NCBI GenBank assembly: GCA_023522315.1
Contig: JAHCSU010000516.1
Coordinates: 1 to 37,434, forward strand
Direction: 5' to 3'
Length of the DNA stretch: 37,434 nt
Source: Nostoc sp. CCCryo 231-06
GTDB lineage: Bacteria > Cyanobacteriota > Cyanobacteriia > Cyanobacteriales > Nostocaceae
A model generated the notes under the pieces. The model was not told the origin of the DNA and did no database searches. It saw only the letters and a list, made by a program, of their open reading frames with translations. Of this stretch, positions 911 to 36,776 are shown one piece after another. The first letter of the stretch is position 1; the number at the start of each line of letters is the position of its first letter. Both the position numbers and the translations under genes were made by a program.

Positions 911-983
911 GCGATGTCTACGATGGTCACTGAGCTTGTCGTTCGCGCAGCGTCTCGTAGAGAAGTGCGGGCTACGCCTACGC
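911..983. repeat. 30-bp dispersed repeat interrupted by a second small repeat
   Basis: Positions 911-923 (gcgatgtctacga) and 968-983 (cgggctacgcctacgc) are the two halves of the 30-bp repeat found intact at 27713-27742 and 21019-21048. Between them lies a block whose core, 930-965, matches 4737-4772 inside tnpB at 35 of 36 positions. One small repeat has therefore landed inside another. Such small dispersed repeats are known from Nostoc genomes (Elhai and colleagues); the assignment to a particular published class is not made here. Confidence 0.75.
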
Positions 984-1038: not shown

Positions 1039-3444
1039 CTATTCAAAGCGCTGATTTTTCTCTGACCAGCGCCTCAAACTGTAGTTATGAGCATTTTCTA
1101 CTAATAAAGCTAAGGATTGCACCCCTGAAAGCTTGGCGATCGCAGACAGTTTTTGTAAGTCATTTCCTGTAAAATCATTGTAAATAACTTCATTCCTATC
1201 AGAGAAAATTATAGTCCGGTCACGGCGTTGCTCTGTGTTTTTCCCCTGAATTTCAGATGTAGGTTGATTCAAGGATGCTATTGCGCCTGCTGAAATAGTT
1301 AGTATTATTTCTGGTTGAGCGTTATTTGTTAAATCAATCACTTGAACGGGCCAATCACCCAACTTTTCCTGCATCTGCTCAAAGCTAGGAATAGCACCAC
1401 CCGGAACTTCATCAGATTGCTGTAAAGATTGCCACACACTCGACAAGATTACCTTCACTCCTTGGGGATTTTGTTGATGTAGTTGTTGTAGAGTGATTGG
1501 AAATGGTTGTACCCATTCCAGCGCTGCATTTGTCAGGGCTAAAGGTTTCGGTTGGAGAACATCGTTTTGATTCTCTGGAATTTTTGGCCCAGCAGCTAAT
1601 AGGCGCAAAACTTTACCCTGTAGTTGCACCGCTTTGATAGCGGCTATAGTAATTTGTTGTTCTCCGTTAGGCAACCAGACCACAACTTGGATTTCAGGGT
1701 CAGAAGTGATTCCCAAAGTTTTCCAGAAAAATTTGGCGGCGTCAGTTTTGGGTGGGTTCAAATTCTCAAAGGGGAAATTTAGCCAGCTTTTACCGTTATG
1801 AAATGCACTCACCTCTATCTGATACCAAACTTGGTTATCTGTGAGTTTCAAGTCTACTGGGGAATTTGGTTGCAGCCATTCAGTGTTGGTAACTTGAGTG
1901 ATTGGTTGAACTGTACCAACAATCTGACTAGGGTGAGTAGAAAATATTTGCGACTTTGCACCCTCATTATTGAGTCTTGCTAACAAATCTTGAATATAGG
2001 CAAGATTATCTTTTGTAATTTTAGGTTGCGCCTTCAACCAAGAATTAGCATGTCCTTCTCCCTGCTGAACAGCTAAAATCAAAGCGAACCAAGCTTGCAC
2101 CTCTCGTCTATTTGGGTTCACCCGCAACGCCGCCGCCGTGCGATTCCACAACCGTTTTTCATCAGCTTTGAGTAGGGTAACAATTTCTTGGACATTATGT
2201 GGCGACGCTTCAAACACCTGTAAAGCTTTCTCCCAACGACCATCAATCAAATTTGCCAGCACTTCTTGACTAGGACTTGCCCAATTTTTCTGGGCTTGGG
2301 TTTTAGTAAGTTGGGAGTGCAGGCGAATCAAATCCATTTGCGCTTGCGCCGCCTCTGGCAAAACTCCTTTACGCTGTTTCTTGATGAATTTCAACCATTC
2401 AAAGGCTGGTGTCCACAGTCCACTACGGGCAATTGACAAAGCATTTTGGTATGCAGAATCCTTGAAGGCTGATGATTGGAGGGTAATCGCCTCCAATTGA
2501 ATTGGTTTGAGGAATAACTTCAGAGGCTTGACTTGGTAAACCTGTAAGTGTGGTTCTAAACCGATAGTTTGATCAACAACTAACTCTTTGGTACTATCAC
2601 CAGTTACTTGCTGCCATTTGGGTAATTGTCCGTTAGGACTAGTCCAAGACAACATTTGTAGTAAGTTTGTGCGTTCTGGATTGTAGTATACGACTTGACC
2701 GTAAGCGATGGCTGCGCCAACGTCTGCGACGAACGCATCAGTTCCTTGTTGGCGTTGACCCCGCAAATTAAACCAAACACCTAGTAATGGTGTCCCACCT
2801 TCAAAGCGTTGCACTTCAGTTAAAGGTAGGGGAATGCTGATATCTTGGGGTTCTGATGTCCCATCAAATGAGGGAGAAATTATAAAGGATTCATCTGGCC
2901 CAGTTACAGGTAATTGAGCCACTAGATAGTAGTAACTTTCTGACTGAGATTTAAACTCTAACTCTTCTGAGCGTTCGTAAACTCTGAGTTCCACCAGTTC
3001 TTCACAATCAGATTGACAATTAGGACGCTGTTGAAAGACTGGCAATAAAAGGGAGTCTTCCGCATTTTGATGTAAAGGCAGAGTTTCCCCAAATATTTGA
3101 TTTTTTTTACTCAAATCGAGTTGAATTTGTTTGAGAGTTTGGGGACGTTCGTGATTACCAAGGGGGATTTGTGCCCATGCAGGTAAAATTTTATTTAGCC
3201 AGCTTACCTGATCTGGATTGAAGATGAAGAGAACGCTAATCCAGGCAAAAGCCATAATTAGACTAGCACTACTGAAGAGAATTGCGTAGGCGCAGCCCGT
3301 CGTAGACATCGCTAGCATTGACGACAACCAACTTCCCCGTTTTAGCTTTTTCTGGGGTTTTTTAACGACGCGTTTCACCATACCTGCATGAGGTTTATTC
3401 TGTTTAGAGGCTTTTGGTGTCGGCTTGCGTGAACGATTTGCCAT
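1039..3444 (-). CDS. Large single-pass membrane-anchored protein, function unknown
   Basis: An 801-residue protein that I cannot assign to a named family. Residues 1-40 are strongly basic (Lys/Arg/Pro), residues about 54-75 form one hydrophobic membrane segment (ILFSSASLIMAFAWISVLFI), and the remaining 720 residues are polar. This implies a short cytoplasmic tail and a large periplasmic or lumenal domain (positive-inside rule, inference). Residues about 350-520 are helical and rich in Gln/Ala/Leu and could be helical repeats. The rest has a mixed composition with many beta-prone stretches. No catalytic motif is evident. Codons 45-54, immediately before the membrane segment, are exactly one copy of a 30-bp dispersed repeat, so part of the N-terminus is repeat-derived. 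The ATG at 3444 precedes a typical basic N-terminus. The gene is monocistronic as far as seen. Confidence 0.8.
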   Translation of the reverse strand: MANRSRKPTPKASKQNKPHAGMVKRVVKKPQKKLKRGSWLSSMLAMSTTGCAYAILFSSASLIMAFAWISVLFIFNPDQVSWLNKILPAWAQIPLGNHERPQTLKQIQLDLSKKNQIFGETLPLHQNAEDSLLLPVFQQRPNCQSDCEELVELRVYERSEELEFKSQSESYYYLVAQLPVTGPDESFIISPSFDGTSEPQDISIPLPLTEVQRFEGGTPLLGVWFNLRGQRQQGTDAFVADVGAAIAYGQVVYYNPERTNLLQMLSWTSPNGQLPKWQQVTGDSTKELVVDQTIGLEPHLQVYQVKPLKLFLKPIQLEAITLQSSAFKDSAYQNALSIARSGLWTPAFEWLKFIKKQRKGVLPEAAQAQMDLIRLHSQLTKTQAQKNWASPSQEVLANLIDGRWEKALQVFEASPHNVQEIVTLLKADEKRLWNRTAAALRVNPNRREVQAWFALILAVQQGEGHANSWLKAQPKITKDNLAYIQDLLARLNNEGAKSQIFSTHPSQIVGTVQPITQVTNTEWLQPNSPVDLKLTDNQVWYQIEVSAFHNGKSWLNFPFENLNPPKTDAAKFFWKTLGITSDPEIQVVVWLPNGEQQITIAAIKAVQLQGKVLRLLAAGPKIPENQNDVLQPKPLALTNAALEWVQPFPITLQQLHQQNPQGVKVILSSVWQSLQQSDEVPGGAIPSFEQMQEKLGDWPVQVIDLTNNAQPEIILTISAGAIASLNQPTSEIQGKNTEQRRDRTIIFSDRNEVIYNDFTGNDLQKLSAIAKLSGVQSLALLVENAHNYSLRRWSEKNQRFE
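3283..3312 (-). repeat. 30-bp dispersed repeat inserted in frame in the 801-residue gene
   Basis: The minus strand of this interval differs at only a few positions from 27713-27742 (intergenic). It covers exactly codons 45-54 (AMSTTGCAYA) of the gene at 1039-3444. The element is 30 bp, starts on a codon boundary, and contains no stop in this frame. Confidence 0.8.
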
Positions 3445-3760
3445 AAATTGGGGATTAGAAATTAAGGATTGGGAATTGAGAAAACTCTTGACTAGTTCCC
3501 AGTACCTAGTAGTGTGTCAAGAAATAATTGACGAATAGATTTGCTGTAGAGACGGCGATTTATCGCGTCTCTCCAACCGTCAAAATGATTTTGACAGACC
3601 ACTAGTCCCCAATACCCAATACCCTGTTATACTCGCCCTTTCAGAAGTTGCCCAGAAAGATTAAGTCTAATTTGGGACAAAATCCGTAAATGTCCCCATC
3701 TGAACGCTAGATGATAGCGAATACACTTTTCACTTAAGTATGTGAGCAAAGTGTAAAAAG
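3445..3760. other. Intergenic region with an AGACGCGAT-type palindrome
   Basis: This gap lies between the diverging 801-residue gene and the porin pseudogene. Positions 3549-3569 carry a palindrome (agacggcgatttatcgcgtct) of the same family as 24822-24841, 24854-24873 and 36189-36208. Nothing else is recognisable; promoters for both neighbours presumably lie here. Confidence 0.45.
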
Positions 3761-4046: not shown

Positions 4047-5294
4047 ATGCTTGTATTCGAGGCAAAACTTAAGGGTAGTGATGAGCAATACGAAAAGCTT
4101 GATGAAGCAATTCGTACTGCTCGTTTTATCCGCAATTCTTGCCTTCGCTACTGGATGGATAACAAGGGAGTTGGGAAGTACGAACTGAGCGCTTATTGTG
4201 CTGTTCTGTCTAAAGACTTTTCCTTTGCCAATAACCTCAATTCGATGGCTCGGCAAGCATCTGCTGAACGGGCTTGGTCTGCAATCTCTCGGTTCTATGA
4301 CAACTGCAAGAAGAATGCGTCCAAGAAGGGGTTCCCGCGTTTTAAGAAGCATCAGACTCACGGTTCTGTGGAATATAAAACCACAGGCTACAAGTTGTCG
4401 GATGATAGACAAACTATTACCTTCACTGATGGCTTTAAAGCAGGAAGTTTCCGGTTGTGGGGAACCCGTGATTTGCATTTTTATCAGTTGAATCAGATTA
4501 AGCGAGTTCGGGTTGTGCGTCGGGCTGATGGGTATTACGCTCAATTCTGCCTTGATGTCGAGCGAGTTGAGAACCGAGAAGCAACGGGTAAAACCATTGG
4601 TCTGGATGTTGGGCTTGCCCACTTCTACACTGATTCTGATGGGCAAACGATTGAGAATCCGCGACATCTCAGGAAGTCTGAAAAGTCGCTCAAGCGTTTG
4701 GGGCGTAAACTTTCTAAGACTAAGAAGGGCGATGCCCTGAGCTTGTCGTTCGCGGAGCGTCTCGTAGAGAAGGGTTCTAAAAATAGGATCAAGCGCAGAA
4801 ATCGCTTGAGCAGAAAACACCTCAAAGTAAGTAGGCAGCGTAAAGATTTTGCTGTGAAGTTGGCAAGATGCGTTATCCAGTCTAACGACTTGGTTGCTTA
4901 TGAAGATTTGATGGTGCGAAACATGGTCAAGAATAGAAAACTGTCCAAATCTATAAGTGATGCGGCATGGTCGGCTTTCCGTGATTGGTTGGAGTATTTC
5001 GGTAAGGTGTTTGGTGTAGCAACAGTTGCTGTTCCACCCCACTACACTAGCGCCAATTGCTCCAATTGCGGGGAAGTCGTCAAAAAGTCTTTGAGTACAA
5101 GAACTCATAAATGTCACCATTGTGGGTTTGTGCTGGATAGAGACTGGAACGCCGCTCGGAACATACTTGAAATTGGACTTCGTACCGTGGGGCACACGGG
5201 AACGCTTAACGCCTCTGGAGACATCGACCTCTGCTTAGGTGAGGAAACTCCTCTAAGTAAGCCGAGTCGTGGAAAGAGGAAACCTAAAGAGTAA
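4047..5294 (+). CDS. tnpB: TnpB RNA-guided nuclease of an IS200/IS605-family element
   Basis: A 415-residue TnpB (OrfB/Cas12 ancestor family; family members are omega-RNA-guided DNA nucleases). Visible landmarks are an N-terminal helix-turn-helix-like part with FPRFK at 96-100, RuvC-I Asp187 in IGLDVGL, RuvC-II Glu286 in AYEDL, a zinc ribbon with Cys338/341 and Cys356/359, and the RuvC-III motif DRDWNAARN (364-372). All catalytic carboxylates are present, so the protein may be active. Length is close to the usual 380-420 residues. Residues 228-242 (GDALSLSFAERLVEK) are an in-frame insertion derived from a dispersed repeat, between KTKKG and SKNR, a junction that is normally continuous. The ATG at 4047 fits the usual start. 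The element sits inside a porin pseudogene. Confidence 0.93.
   Translation: MLVFEAKLKGSDEQYEKLDEAIRTARFIRNSCLRYWMDNKGVGKYELSAYCAVLSKDFSFANNLNSMARQASAERAWSAISRFYDNCKKNASKKGFPRFKKHQTHGSVEYKTTGYKLSDDRQTITFTDGFKAGSFRLWGTRDLHFYQLNQIKRVRVVRRADGYYAQFCLDVERVENREATGKTIGLDVGLAHFYTDSDGQTIENPRHLRKSEKSLKRLGRKLSKTKKGDALSLSFAERLVEKGSKNRIKRRNRLSRKHLKVSRQRKDFAVKLARCVIQSNDLVAYEDLMVRNMVKNRKLSKSISDAAWSAFRDWLEYFGKVFGVATVAVPPHYTSANCSNCGEVVKKSLSTRTHKCHHCGFVLDRDWNAARNILEIGLRTVGHTGTLNASGDIDLCLGEETPLSKPSRGKRKPKE
4730..4774 (+). repeat. 45-bp repeat insertion in frame within tnpB, flanked by 7-bp direct repeat
   Basis: The sequence agaaggg occurs at 4723-4729 and again at 4768-4774, exactly 45 bp apart. The intervening DNA contains 4737-4772, which matches 930-965 in intergenic DNA with one mismatch. 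The duplication resembles a target-site duplication. The insertion adds 15 codons without changing frame or introducing a stop. Confidence 0.8.
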
Positions 5295-20892: not shown

Positions 20893-21414
20893 TCAGCGTT
20901 GCACAGCATATATATAGTGCGGTATGTCGCGCCAGAGTGTCTCCTGAACGATCTTGAGTCCGTTCTTTTCAGCAACGCGCCGAGAGGGGATGTTCTCTGG
21001 GCGAATTAGGGAAATGACGCGATGCCTACGGTGGGCTACGCCTACGCAGCAACCCAGCACGTTAAAGGCGTAGTTCTGGCAAGCAGATGCGGCTTCCGTG
21101 GCGTAACCCTGCATTTGTTGGTCACGGCGGACGTGGTATCCAATTTCGAGTTCTTGGTGTCCCTCGACTTCTTGCCAAACCAGTCCGCAGTCGCCGATTA
21201 CCTCGCCTGTCGCCTTGAGAACCATCGCCCACAAGCCGACGCCGTGCTGTGCGTAGTTGTGGCGGTGCCGATCAATCCACTTTTGCACCATCTCGCGGTC
21301 AAACGGCTTTGGATAGTAGCGCATCGACTCTGCATCACCAAGGACAAGCAGTAGCGCGTCGAGGTCAGAAATCTGCATTTCCCGGAGTAATAGGCGATCG
21401 GTTTCTAATATCAT
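20893..21414 (-). CDS. GNAT N-acetyltransferase, RimJ/RimL type, with repeat-derived insertion
   Basis: A 173-residue acetyl-CoA-dependent acetyltransferase. The start ETDRLLLREMQISDLDALL is the typical RimJ/RimL opening. The middle strands are GEVIGDCGLVW and ELEIGYHV, and the acetyl-CoA-binding loop is DQQMQGYATEAASACQNYAF (99-117). The C-terminus has RVISLIRPENIPSRRVAEKNGLK. Between VLGC (119-122) and VISLI (133-137) stand ten residues, 123-132 (CVGVAHRRHR), encoded exactly by a 30-bp dispersed repeat; related enzymes usually have only about one residue there. The insertion follows the acetyl-CoA-binding helix and may or may not be tolerated. Substrate unknown. Confidence 0.88.
   Translation of the reverse strand: MILETDRLLLREMQISDLDALLLVLGDAESMRYYPKPFDREMVQKWIDRHRHNYAQHGVGLWAMVLKATGEVIGDCGLVWQEVEGHQELEIGYHVRRDQQMQGYATEAASACQNYAFNVLGCCVGVAHRRHRVISLIRPENIPSRRVAEKNGLKIVQETLWRDIPHYIYAVQR
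21019..21048 (+). repeat. 30-bp dispersed repeat inserted in frame in the GNAT gene
   Basis: Differs at only a few positions from 27713-27742 (plus strand) and from 3283-3312 (minus strand). The element starts and ends on codon boundaries (codons 123-132 of the GNAT gene, which reads the opposite strand of the repeat). Confidence 0.85.
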
Positions 21415-27712: not shown

Positions 27713-27742
27713 GCGATGCCTACGGCGGGCTACGCCAACGCA
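27713..27742 (+). repeat. 30-bp dispersed repeat, intact intergenic copy
   Basis: This copy (gcgatgcctacggcgggcta and ten further bases) is the reference for the insertions at 21019-21048, 3283-3312 and the split copy at 911-983. All three plus-strand frames and one minus-strand frame lack a stop codon. Confidence 0.85.
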
Positions 27743-27794: not shown

Positions 27795-27920
27795 TATCCC
27801 GCCCAGAACTGAAGTTCAGGGCTGATAGCTGAAGTCCACTTAAGTGGACTAAATTAATTATTCAGTCCACAAAGCGTGGACTTCAGCTATGAGACTCGGA
27901 ATTCATTCCGAGGCGGGATA
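27795..27920. repeat. 126-bp hairpin-forming repeat element
   Basis: tatcccgcc (27795-27803) and ggcgggata (27912-27920) close a long imperfect stem. Inner arms include atagctgaagtccac (27824-27838) and gtggacttcagctat (27876-27890), with smaller hairpins at the tip (gtccacttaagtggac). Noncoding palindromic repeat, possibly a mobile or transcript-end structure. Confidence 0.75.
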
Positions 27921-36218: not shown

Positions 36219-36776
36219 TTAGAAGTTTCCGGCTAAGGCTGCAACACACCGATCGCAAATTAAGGGATGTTCTGCTGATTCTCCTATACGAGTAGAGTAG
36301 TTCCAACAGCGATCGCACTTCGTGTAGCAATACGGTTCAGTTAAGCCGACATTCCGCACTTCAAGATGTAACACATTGATATTCAAGAAGATTTCCTGAT
36401 AATGCTCAATGCTTAAGTATTAATACTGACAAATGTTGGTAATTTGTGATTGCTATTTAACCACCATTAGCCAGACATTGGAAATCTTCGTGTATTACAC
36501 GATGAAGTGCGGAATGTGGGTTAAGGATAATTGTAGGTTGGGTTGAGGGACGAAACCCAACAAAGTACCGAAAATGTTGGGTTTCGTCCCTCAACCCAAC
36601 CTACGCTGGTTTTGGTTTTTGACTTTAACCCAAGCGTATTGCTTCGTGTAGGCTTTGCCAACGCATTTTTCCCCGTCTGCATTCACTCCACCAATTACCC
36701 AGTCTTCTGTTTGTGCTGTATATTTTAATTTTTGTAGTACATCAGCAGAATCTAATAATTCCACTCAACTAATTGT
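36219..36776 (-). pseudogene. ileS: Isoleucyl-tRNA synthetase C-terminal remnant, split by repeats
   Basis: On the minus strand 36663-36776 reads VELLDSADVLQKLKYTAQ then TEDWVIGGVNADGEKC. 36219-36320 reads [20 protein letters not shown] then [13 protein letters not shown] and a TAA stop. Joined at EKC/KCDRC these are the end of IleRS, including its zinc finger with four Cys (CDRC...CDRC). The 342 bp between (36321-36662) is repeat DNA: a 30-bp perfect hairpin at 36533-36604 and small dispersed repeats. There is no upstream part of ileS: a TPR gene begins at 36810. The fragment is therefore a dead duplicate or a truncated paralog, and a functional ileS must lie elsewhere. Confidence 0.75.
36533..36604. 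repeat. Perfect 30-bp stem hairpin inside the ileS remnant
   Basis: 36533-36562 and 36575-36604 are perfect inverted repeats (gtaggttgggttgagggacg and ten further bases) around a 12-nt loop. Such a perfect long stem implies recent insertion or selection. It is part of the repeat block that splits the ileS tail. Confidence 0.9.

Follow-up and report, generated by a model that had tools for sequence, protein, structure and literature searches.

The 37,434-nt stretch of Nostoc sp. CCCryo 231-06 DNA analyzed here (the window, designated contig C464; the genome comprises 7.08 Mb in 720 contigs) raises the question of what kind of repeat can sit inside two unrelated genes, in opposite strand sense, and leave both frames open. 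A sequence-only reading of the window had answered with a mobile unit of 30 bp, or ten codons, tolerated by its host proteins and resembling the palindromic elements of Rickettsia. Comparison with orthologous and dispersed sites leads us to a related answer: the repeat is very probably SDR5, a mobile element of 21 nt which would enter the octamer HIP1 without target duplication and which, inside genes, would be filtered through the encoded protein.

The dispersed repeat itself proved to be real, since the 29-mer GCGATGCCTACGGCGGGCTACGCCTACGC had three near-identical matches in the window (Table 1) and none in 100 shuffled sequences. The opposite strand sense of the two in-gene copies, the absence of stops from four of the six frames of the repeat, and the presence of a split copy and of an intact one outside ORFs of at least 100 aa were also borne out. 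However, the unit had to be redefined. Alignment of orthologs identified the moving part as a 21-nt insert, GYCTACGRCGGGCTACGCCTA, corresponding to seven codons and located between bases 5 and 6 of HIP1 (GCGAT^CGC); the 29-mer is the sum of this insert and its 8-nt target, and the supposed 30-bp unit contained one flanking base in addition. The exact codon phase said to be shared by both genes was an artefact of taking this 30th base at opposite ends. The phases actually differ, HIP1 being read GCG ATC GC in the 801-residue gene and GC GAT CGC in the GNAT gene, and the frame is kept by length alone, as a multiple of three. Two adjacent mini-hairpins of 9 nt, with 3 bp each, can be drawn within the insert; a long palindrome is absent, and the interpretation of the element as one was therefore rejected.

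Table 1. Host genes and copies of the repeat in the window; copies are named after SDR5, which the repeat matches.
Feature	Positions	Strand	Remarks
Split SDR5 copy	911..983	+	halves 911-923 and 968-983; 44-nt nested repeat 924-967 between them
Host gene 1, 801 aa	1039..3444	-	open frame; no Pfam match
SDR5 core + both HIP1 halves (GCGAT...CGC)	3284..3312	-	
SDR5 core, 21 nt	3287..3307	-	sense, inside 801-residue gene; empty HIP1 would read GCG ATC GC
Host gene 2, GNAT acetyltransferase (Acetyltransf_3), 173 aa	20893..21414	-	open frame
29-mer match in GNAT gene	21019-21047	+	
SDR5 core, 21 nt	21024..21044	+	antisense to GNAT gene; reading (C)VGVAHRRHR
SDR5 copy in HIP1	27713..27741	+	in no ORF of at least 100 aa

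Distribution of the repeat was analyzed at the level of the genome, the genus and the order. All 53 genomes of the genus, including the present one, contained it, with 19 to 148 matches each, and a reversed-pattern control across the same 53 genomes gave zero matches. In an order-wide sample it occurred in 28 of 243 genomes, three of which belonged to the genus; the others had 1 to 15 matches each. The window genome harbors 139 cores, 60 of them exact. These 60 form a complete set, listed by a search blind to the flanks, and their HIP1 flanks were perfect in 51 cases, with one change in six, two changes in two and three changes in one. Other analyses of this genome concerned 114 to 116 of the 139 cores, among the matches listed and partly selected through their HIP1 flanks. 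Among 114 such copies, stem positions 2 and 8 were occupied by T-A in 60 and C-G in 52, the combinations T-G and C-A being found once each; the second stem hardly varied and was uninformative. As only this one pair switches, splitting the copies into two sequence types, the paired change does not represent many independent events.

These properties direct attention to SDR5, which is said to be a small dispersed repeat of Nostoc punctiforme described by Elhai et al. in 2008 (Genome Res 18:1484), the abstract reportedly giving a size range of 21-27 nt for such repeats and the study reportedly claiming mobility, a stem backed by compensatory changes, and confinement to a coherent cyanobacterial subgroup. 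Here, the insert measured 21 nt, an 18-nt variant existed besides, the stem was supported by one pair only (positions 2-8), and the repeat was present in the whole genus and sparse elsewhere in the order. According to the rule quoted in PMC4390886, SDR5 inserts between nucleotides 3 and 4, on either strand, of HIP1, in agreement with the insertion after GCGAT observed here. The repeat thus matches SDR5, on the basis of the HIP1 rule as quoted there and of the reported properties, and not of the consensus sequence. Both are small modules placed precisely in HIP1 and dispersed in Nostoc genomes, with paired stem changes. The element itself is known, and its in-gene life as measured here is a useful extension, which adds an in-gene census, a frame and orientation test, and filled and empty in-gene sites across 49 genomes. 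In the full-text papers searched, which comprised neither the 2008 article itself nor the bulk of the subscription literature, no description of SDR5 in coding genes was found; this is weak evidence.

The likeness to Rickettsia palindromic elements stands as far as in-frame tolerance is concerned: in both cases unrelated protein genes are invaded and their frames kept open, here at 88 distinct in-gene sites from six genomes, among the matches listed. Kinship, however, is unsupported. Rickettsia elements are palindromes of about 150 bp in ten families, as summarized in PMC10969869, whereas the present element has 21 nt, a fixed 8-nt target and two possible 3-bp hairpins in place of a long palindrome, and fits SDR5. 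It works like these elements, yet is not one of them. REP and REPIN sequences, associated with RAYT transposases (GTAG families), are likewise short, high-copy, hairpin-forming DNA, and REP families are listed for Nostoc in PMC3733652 and PMC3116915; they differ by lying predominantly downstream of coding regions, although some occur within genes according to PMC3733652. MITEs such as Nezha are also non-autonomous mobile repeats of cyanobacteria. They measure 70-300 bp and carry terminal inverted repeats (PMC3733652), unlike the 21-nt insert, which showed no target-site duplication at its site in the 801-residue gene.

That site provided the largest set of filled and empty alleles. The gene had matches in 52 of the 53 genomes of the genus, the present one included and a few being partial or remnant, and the closest named relatives of its protein came from Nostoc and neighboring genera. 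The site was scored in 49 genomes, again including the present one; among the four others, one had no match and three had only remnants or a part lacking the site. The 21-nt insert was found in 11 of the 49, an 18-nt variant in seven, and 31 were empty. Empty sites read as the perfect HIP1 GCGATCGC in 26 cases (25 in the count itself and L101, a late-starting row that is perfect in the alignment) and with one change in the other five. At the site, filled and empty alleles differed by the insert alone, and target duplication was absent. One of the 11 filled sites ended in CAC in place of CGC, and one filled copy, L109 (G013), was a fragment with an internal stop. The six-codon variant of 18 nt, RCCTACRGYGGCAAGCTA, occupied the same HIP1 in L067, L076, L078, L079, L088, L089 and L095, one of these seven orthologs also having an adjacent deletion; together with its target, as a 26-nt pattern, it had 2 to 21 matches in each of the 53 genomes.

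The scatter of filled sites over the tree of the 801-residue gene can be read in two ways. With the first 250 nt removed from the alignment, the 21-nt state needed at least nine changes, six of them forced by well-supported branches, and a single clade of filled genes was rejected (p-AU 2e-40). Nine changes on a tree are not proof of nine insertions, and under shuffled labels a mean of 10.1 changes was obtained, 112 of 500 shuffles being as low as the observed value. This pattern is compatible with one old insertion followed by repeated precise excision, or with short-tract exchange between strains, an explanation to which we give slightly less than an even chance. Eight of the 11 inserts at the site belong to the same TGC-loop subtype, GTCTACGACGGGCTGCGCCTA, which is rare in the window genome (four of 114 copies, among the matches listed), so that part of the scatter may result from precise loss back to HIP1 or from exchange. 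Independent gain at every filled ortholog, which had been considered, is weakened by the same figure. On the other hand, L104, a filled gene from the distant clade, keeps the flanks of its own clade up to about ten bases from the site in either direction and matches its empty sister L107 in the flanks nearest the site, so that an exchanged tract could hardly be accommodated. Moreover, the sequence of the 18-nt variant is different from that of the 21-nt insert, which argues for probably at least two separate events at the same HIP1, the variant probably representing a separate arrival.

In the GNAT gene, three of ten orthologs were filled. Perfect HIP1 was found in two of the seven empty ones, and the other five had it in changed or altered form. 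The window copy and L032 carry 21 + 3 nt, hence a difference of 24 nt between the window gene and its intact-HIP1 orthologs, and L033 (G038) has the plain 21 nt. More distant GNAT homologs, when aligned, did not contain the same residues. An AlphaFold2 model of the window protein, built from 25 sequences with a mean pLDDT of 90.5, has the insert in the loop that connects helix 104-120 with strand 133-137; residues 124-128, within the insert, were the sole segment under a pLDDT of 50. The occurrence of orthologs lacking the residues, most of them with intact HIP1 in the case of the 801-residue gene, and of many further in-gene copies in related genomes supports the earlier proposal of a mobile-looking element that is probably tolerated by proteins; neither of the outcomes named beforehand as refuting that proposal was obtained.

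A census of in-gene copies was performed on stretches from six genomes, ORFs of at least 120 aa being called mechanically and distinct sites being defined by flank similarity. Besides the window genome, 30 exact copies each were fetched from G044, G013 and G047, 75 listed places from G002 and 11 of 19 listed from G003, and further copies falling within the fetched stretches were counted too. Among the matches listed, this gave 308 copies, 108 in ORFs and 200 outside, the 108 in-gene copies corresponding to 88 distinct sites. The two in-gene copies of the window, both present as claimed, are thus a large undercount: in their own genome, 46 of 116 copies lay in ORFs, among the matches listed. 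HIP1 was found 408 times in ORFs and 238 times outside in the same stretches. SDR5 thus lies in ORFs less often than HIP1 does, a deficit that would follow if part of the insertions were lost or disrupted the frame.

The orientation and reading frame of these copies were then compared with expectation. GC GAT CGC is the sole reading of HIP1 in which both orientations of the insert are free of stops. In this frame, 40 distinct sites were sense and nine antisense (p = 9e-6), with ratios of 34:6 in ORFs of at least 200 aa and 22:4 in those of at least 300 aa, all among the matches listed; previously unseen sites from the three last-added genomes gave 11:2 (p = 0.022) under the same restriction. 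Copies between co-directional genes were evenly divided, with 35 sense and 34 antisense among the matches listed, and this ratio differed from the in-gene ratio (Fisher p = 9e-4). Sense copies used the frames GCG ATC GC, GC GAT CGC and G CGA TCG C in proportions of 28:40:8, among the matches listed, as against 200:133:75 for the HIP1 background (p = 0.003 for the departure). A bias by replication strand was rejected, since a two-block pattern was absent among 40 exact copies on the main contig of G002 (p about 0.61).

Equal orientation between co-directional genes suggests that transcription does not guide insertion, and the sense bias in genes speaks for selection acting on the peptide. The simplest reading of these counts is that insertion heeds transcription little and that the protein filters the outcome afterwards. 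The bias could instead arise at the insertion step, through sense entry into transcribed strands or mRNA, the protein being irrelevant; we regard this as improbable. Over all frames, 76 in-gene sites were sense and 12 antisense in the six genomes, among the matches listed, but stops in two of three antisense frames make an overall skew expected in any case. A lean to sense was also seen within 150 nt upstream of genes (23:12), the sole noncoding figure of this kind; it is opposed by the parity between co-directional genes and by a ratio of 26:22 within 150 nt past gene ends, both of these near-gene counts being from three genomes, among the matches listed. The departure of frame use from the HIP1 background also argues against an effect limited to insertion.

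It is very unlikely that the in-gene matches merely reflect spurious ORFs or chance. ORF calling was mechanical, without gene models, which leaves room for such errors, but no match appeared in shuffled sequences or in reversed-pattern controls, the bias persisted in ORFs of at least 300 aa, and Pfam domains were recognized in 16 of 17 host proteins scanned, these having been hand-picked from the 46 in-gene copies, partly for their resemblance to known proteins. Hosts with such domains included ArgC, a homolog of FMN-dependent hydroxyacid oxidase, DnaB, a release factor, a SAM hydroxide adenosyltransferase, histidine kinases, a penicillin-binding protein and an Omp85 protein. Alignment with solved homologs placed a gap at the copy of seven residues against hydroxyacid oxidase 1, seven in ArgC, where an additional gap stands just ahead of the copy, eight in GNAT (21 + 3 nt) and five in a second DapF. 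The use of dapF as a case of insertion into an essential gene was abandoned, as the host is a second dapF copy and an ordinary dapF is found elsewhere in the genome; this second copy had long matches of 72-96% identity in ten other genomes, as well as fragmentary ones in some of the rest. Finally, that the ten residues are ancestral in both proteins and alike by chance has practically no probability, since nothing was found in its favor and orthologs of the two genes at 75-93% identity lack the segment, 28 of 38 showing a perfect HIP1.

The mechanism that we propose for SDR5 starts with insertion between GCGAT and CGC of HIP1, which would take place without target duplication. Since the insert spans seven codons and can be read without stops in four of six frames, a gene that is hit would usually have its protein lengthened by seven residues. 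Copies creating a stop or a poorly tolerated peptide would be purged by selection on the protein, so that sense copies and the predicted peptide D(A/V)Y(G/D)GLRLR would become overrepresented. Candidate movers may be a single-strand transposase of the Y1/REP type, recognizing hairpins, or an RNA route. An RNA route has reportedly been proposed earlier for SDR elements. Either would be in keeping with the pair of neighboring 3-bp hairpins, the strictness of the target and the lack of target duplication. A more far-reaching possibility, which we consider rather unlikely, is that SDR5 is tuned to life in genes as a genus-wide inserter of seven-codon peptides, with loops continually gained and lost in functional proteins and precise loss restoring HIP1; it draws on the two lengths observed, 21 and 18 nt, each a multiple of three, on the abundance of HIP1 in coding sequences and on the openness of most frames.

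These observations suggest that proteins, and not spacer DNA alone, are reshaped at a predictable position by a mobile element that ranks among the smallest known. As each of the 53 genomes of the genus has 19-148 matches, strains can be compared to trace how real enzymes gain and lose seven-residue loops, and the contrast in orientation between in-gene and noncoding copies helps to tell a preference at insertion from selection on the protein. To gene callers and protein aligners, such inserts will look like odd lineage-specific loops.

Other repeats were noted in the window. The SDR5 copy at 27713 is adjoined by an inverted repeat at 27795-27920, with arms of 45 nt, 78% complementary, around 36 nt. 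The TnpB (OrfB_IS605) gene at 4047-5291 (+) contains, near 4726-4772, an in-frame insert of 45 nt (15 codons), absent from seven related TnpB genes aligned and built from small repeats of other kinds, TGAGCTTGTCG... and ...AGCGTCTCGTAGAG, the placement of the gap being ambiguous; other repeats can thus also lie in frame within a gene. A 36-nt stretch of this insert, at 97% identity, is held in common with the 44-nt repeat nested in the split copy at 911-983. A perfect inverted repeat of 30 bp with a 12-nt loop is located at 36533-36604, and a dispersed repeat resembling GCGATTNATCGCGTCTCTCC, with HIP1-like halves inside, occurs at 3555, 24826, 24858, 24883 and 36193.
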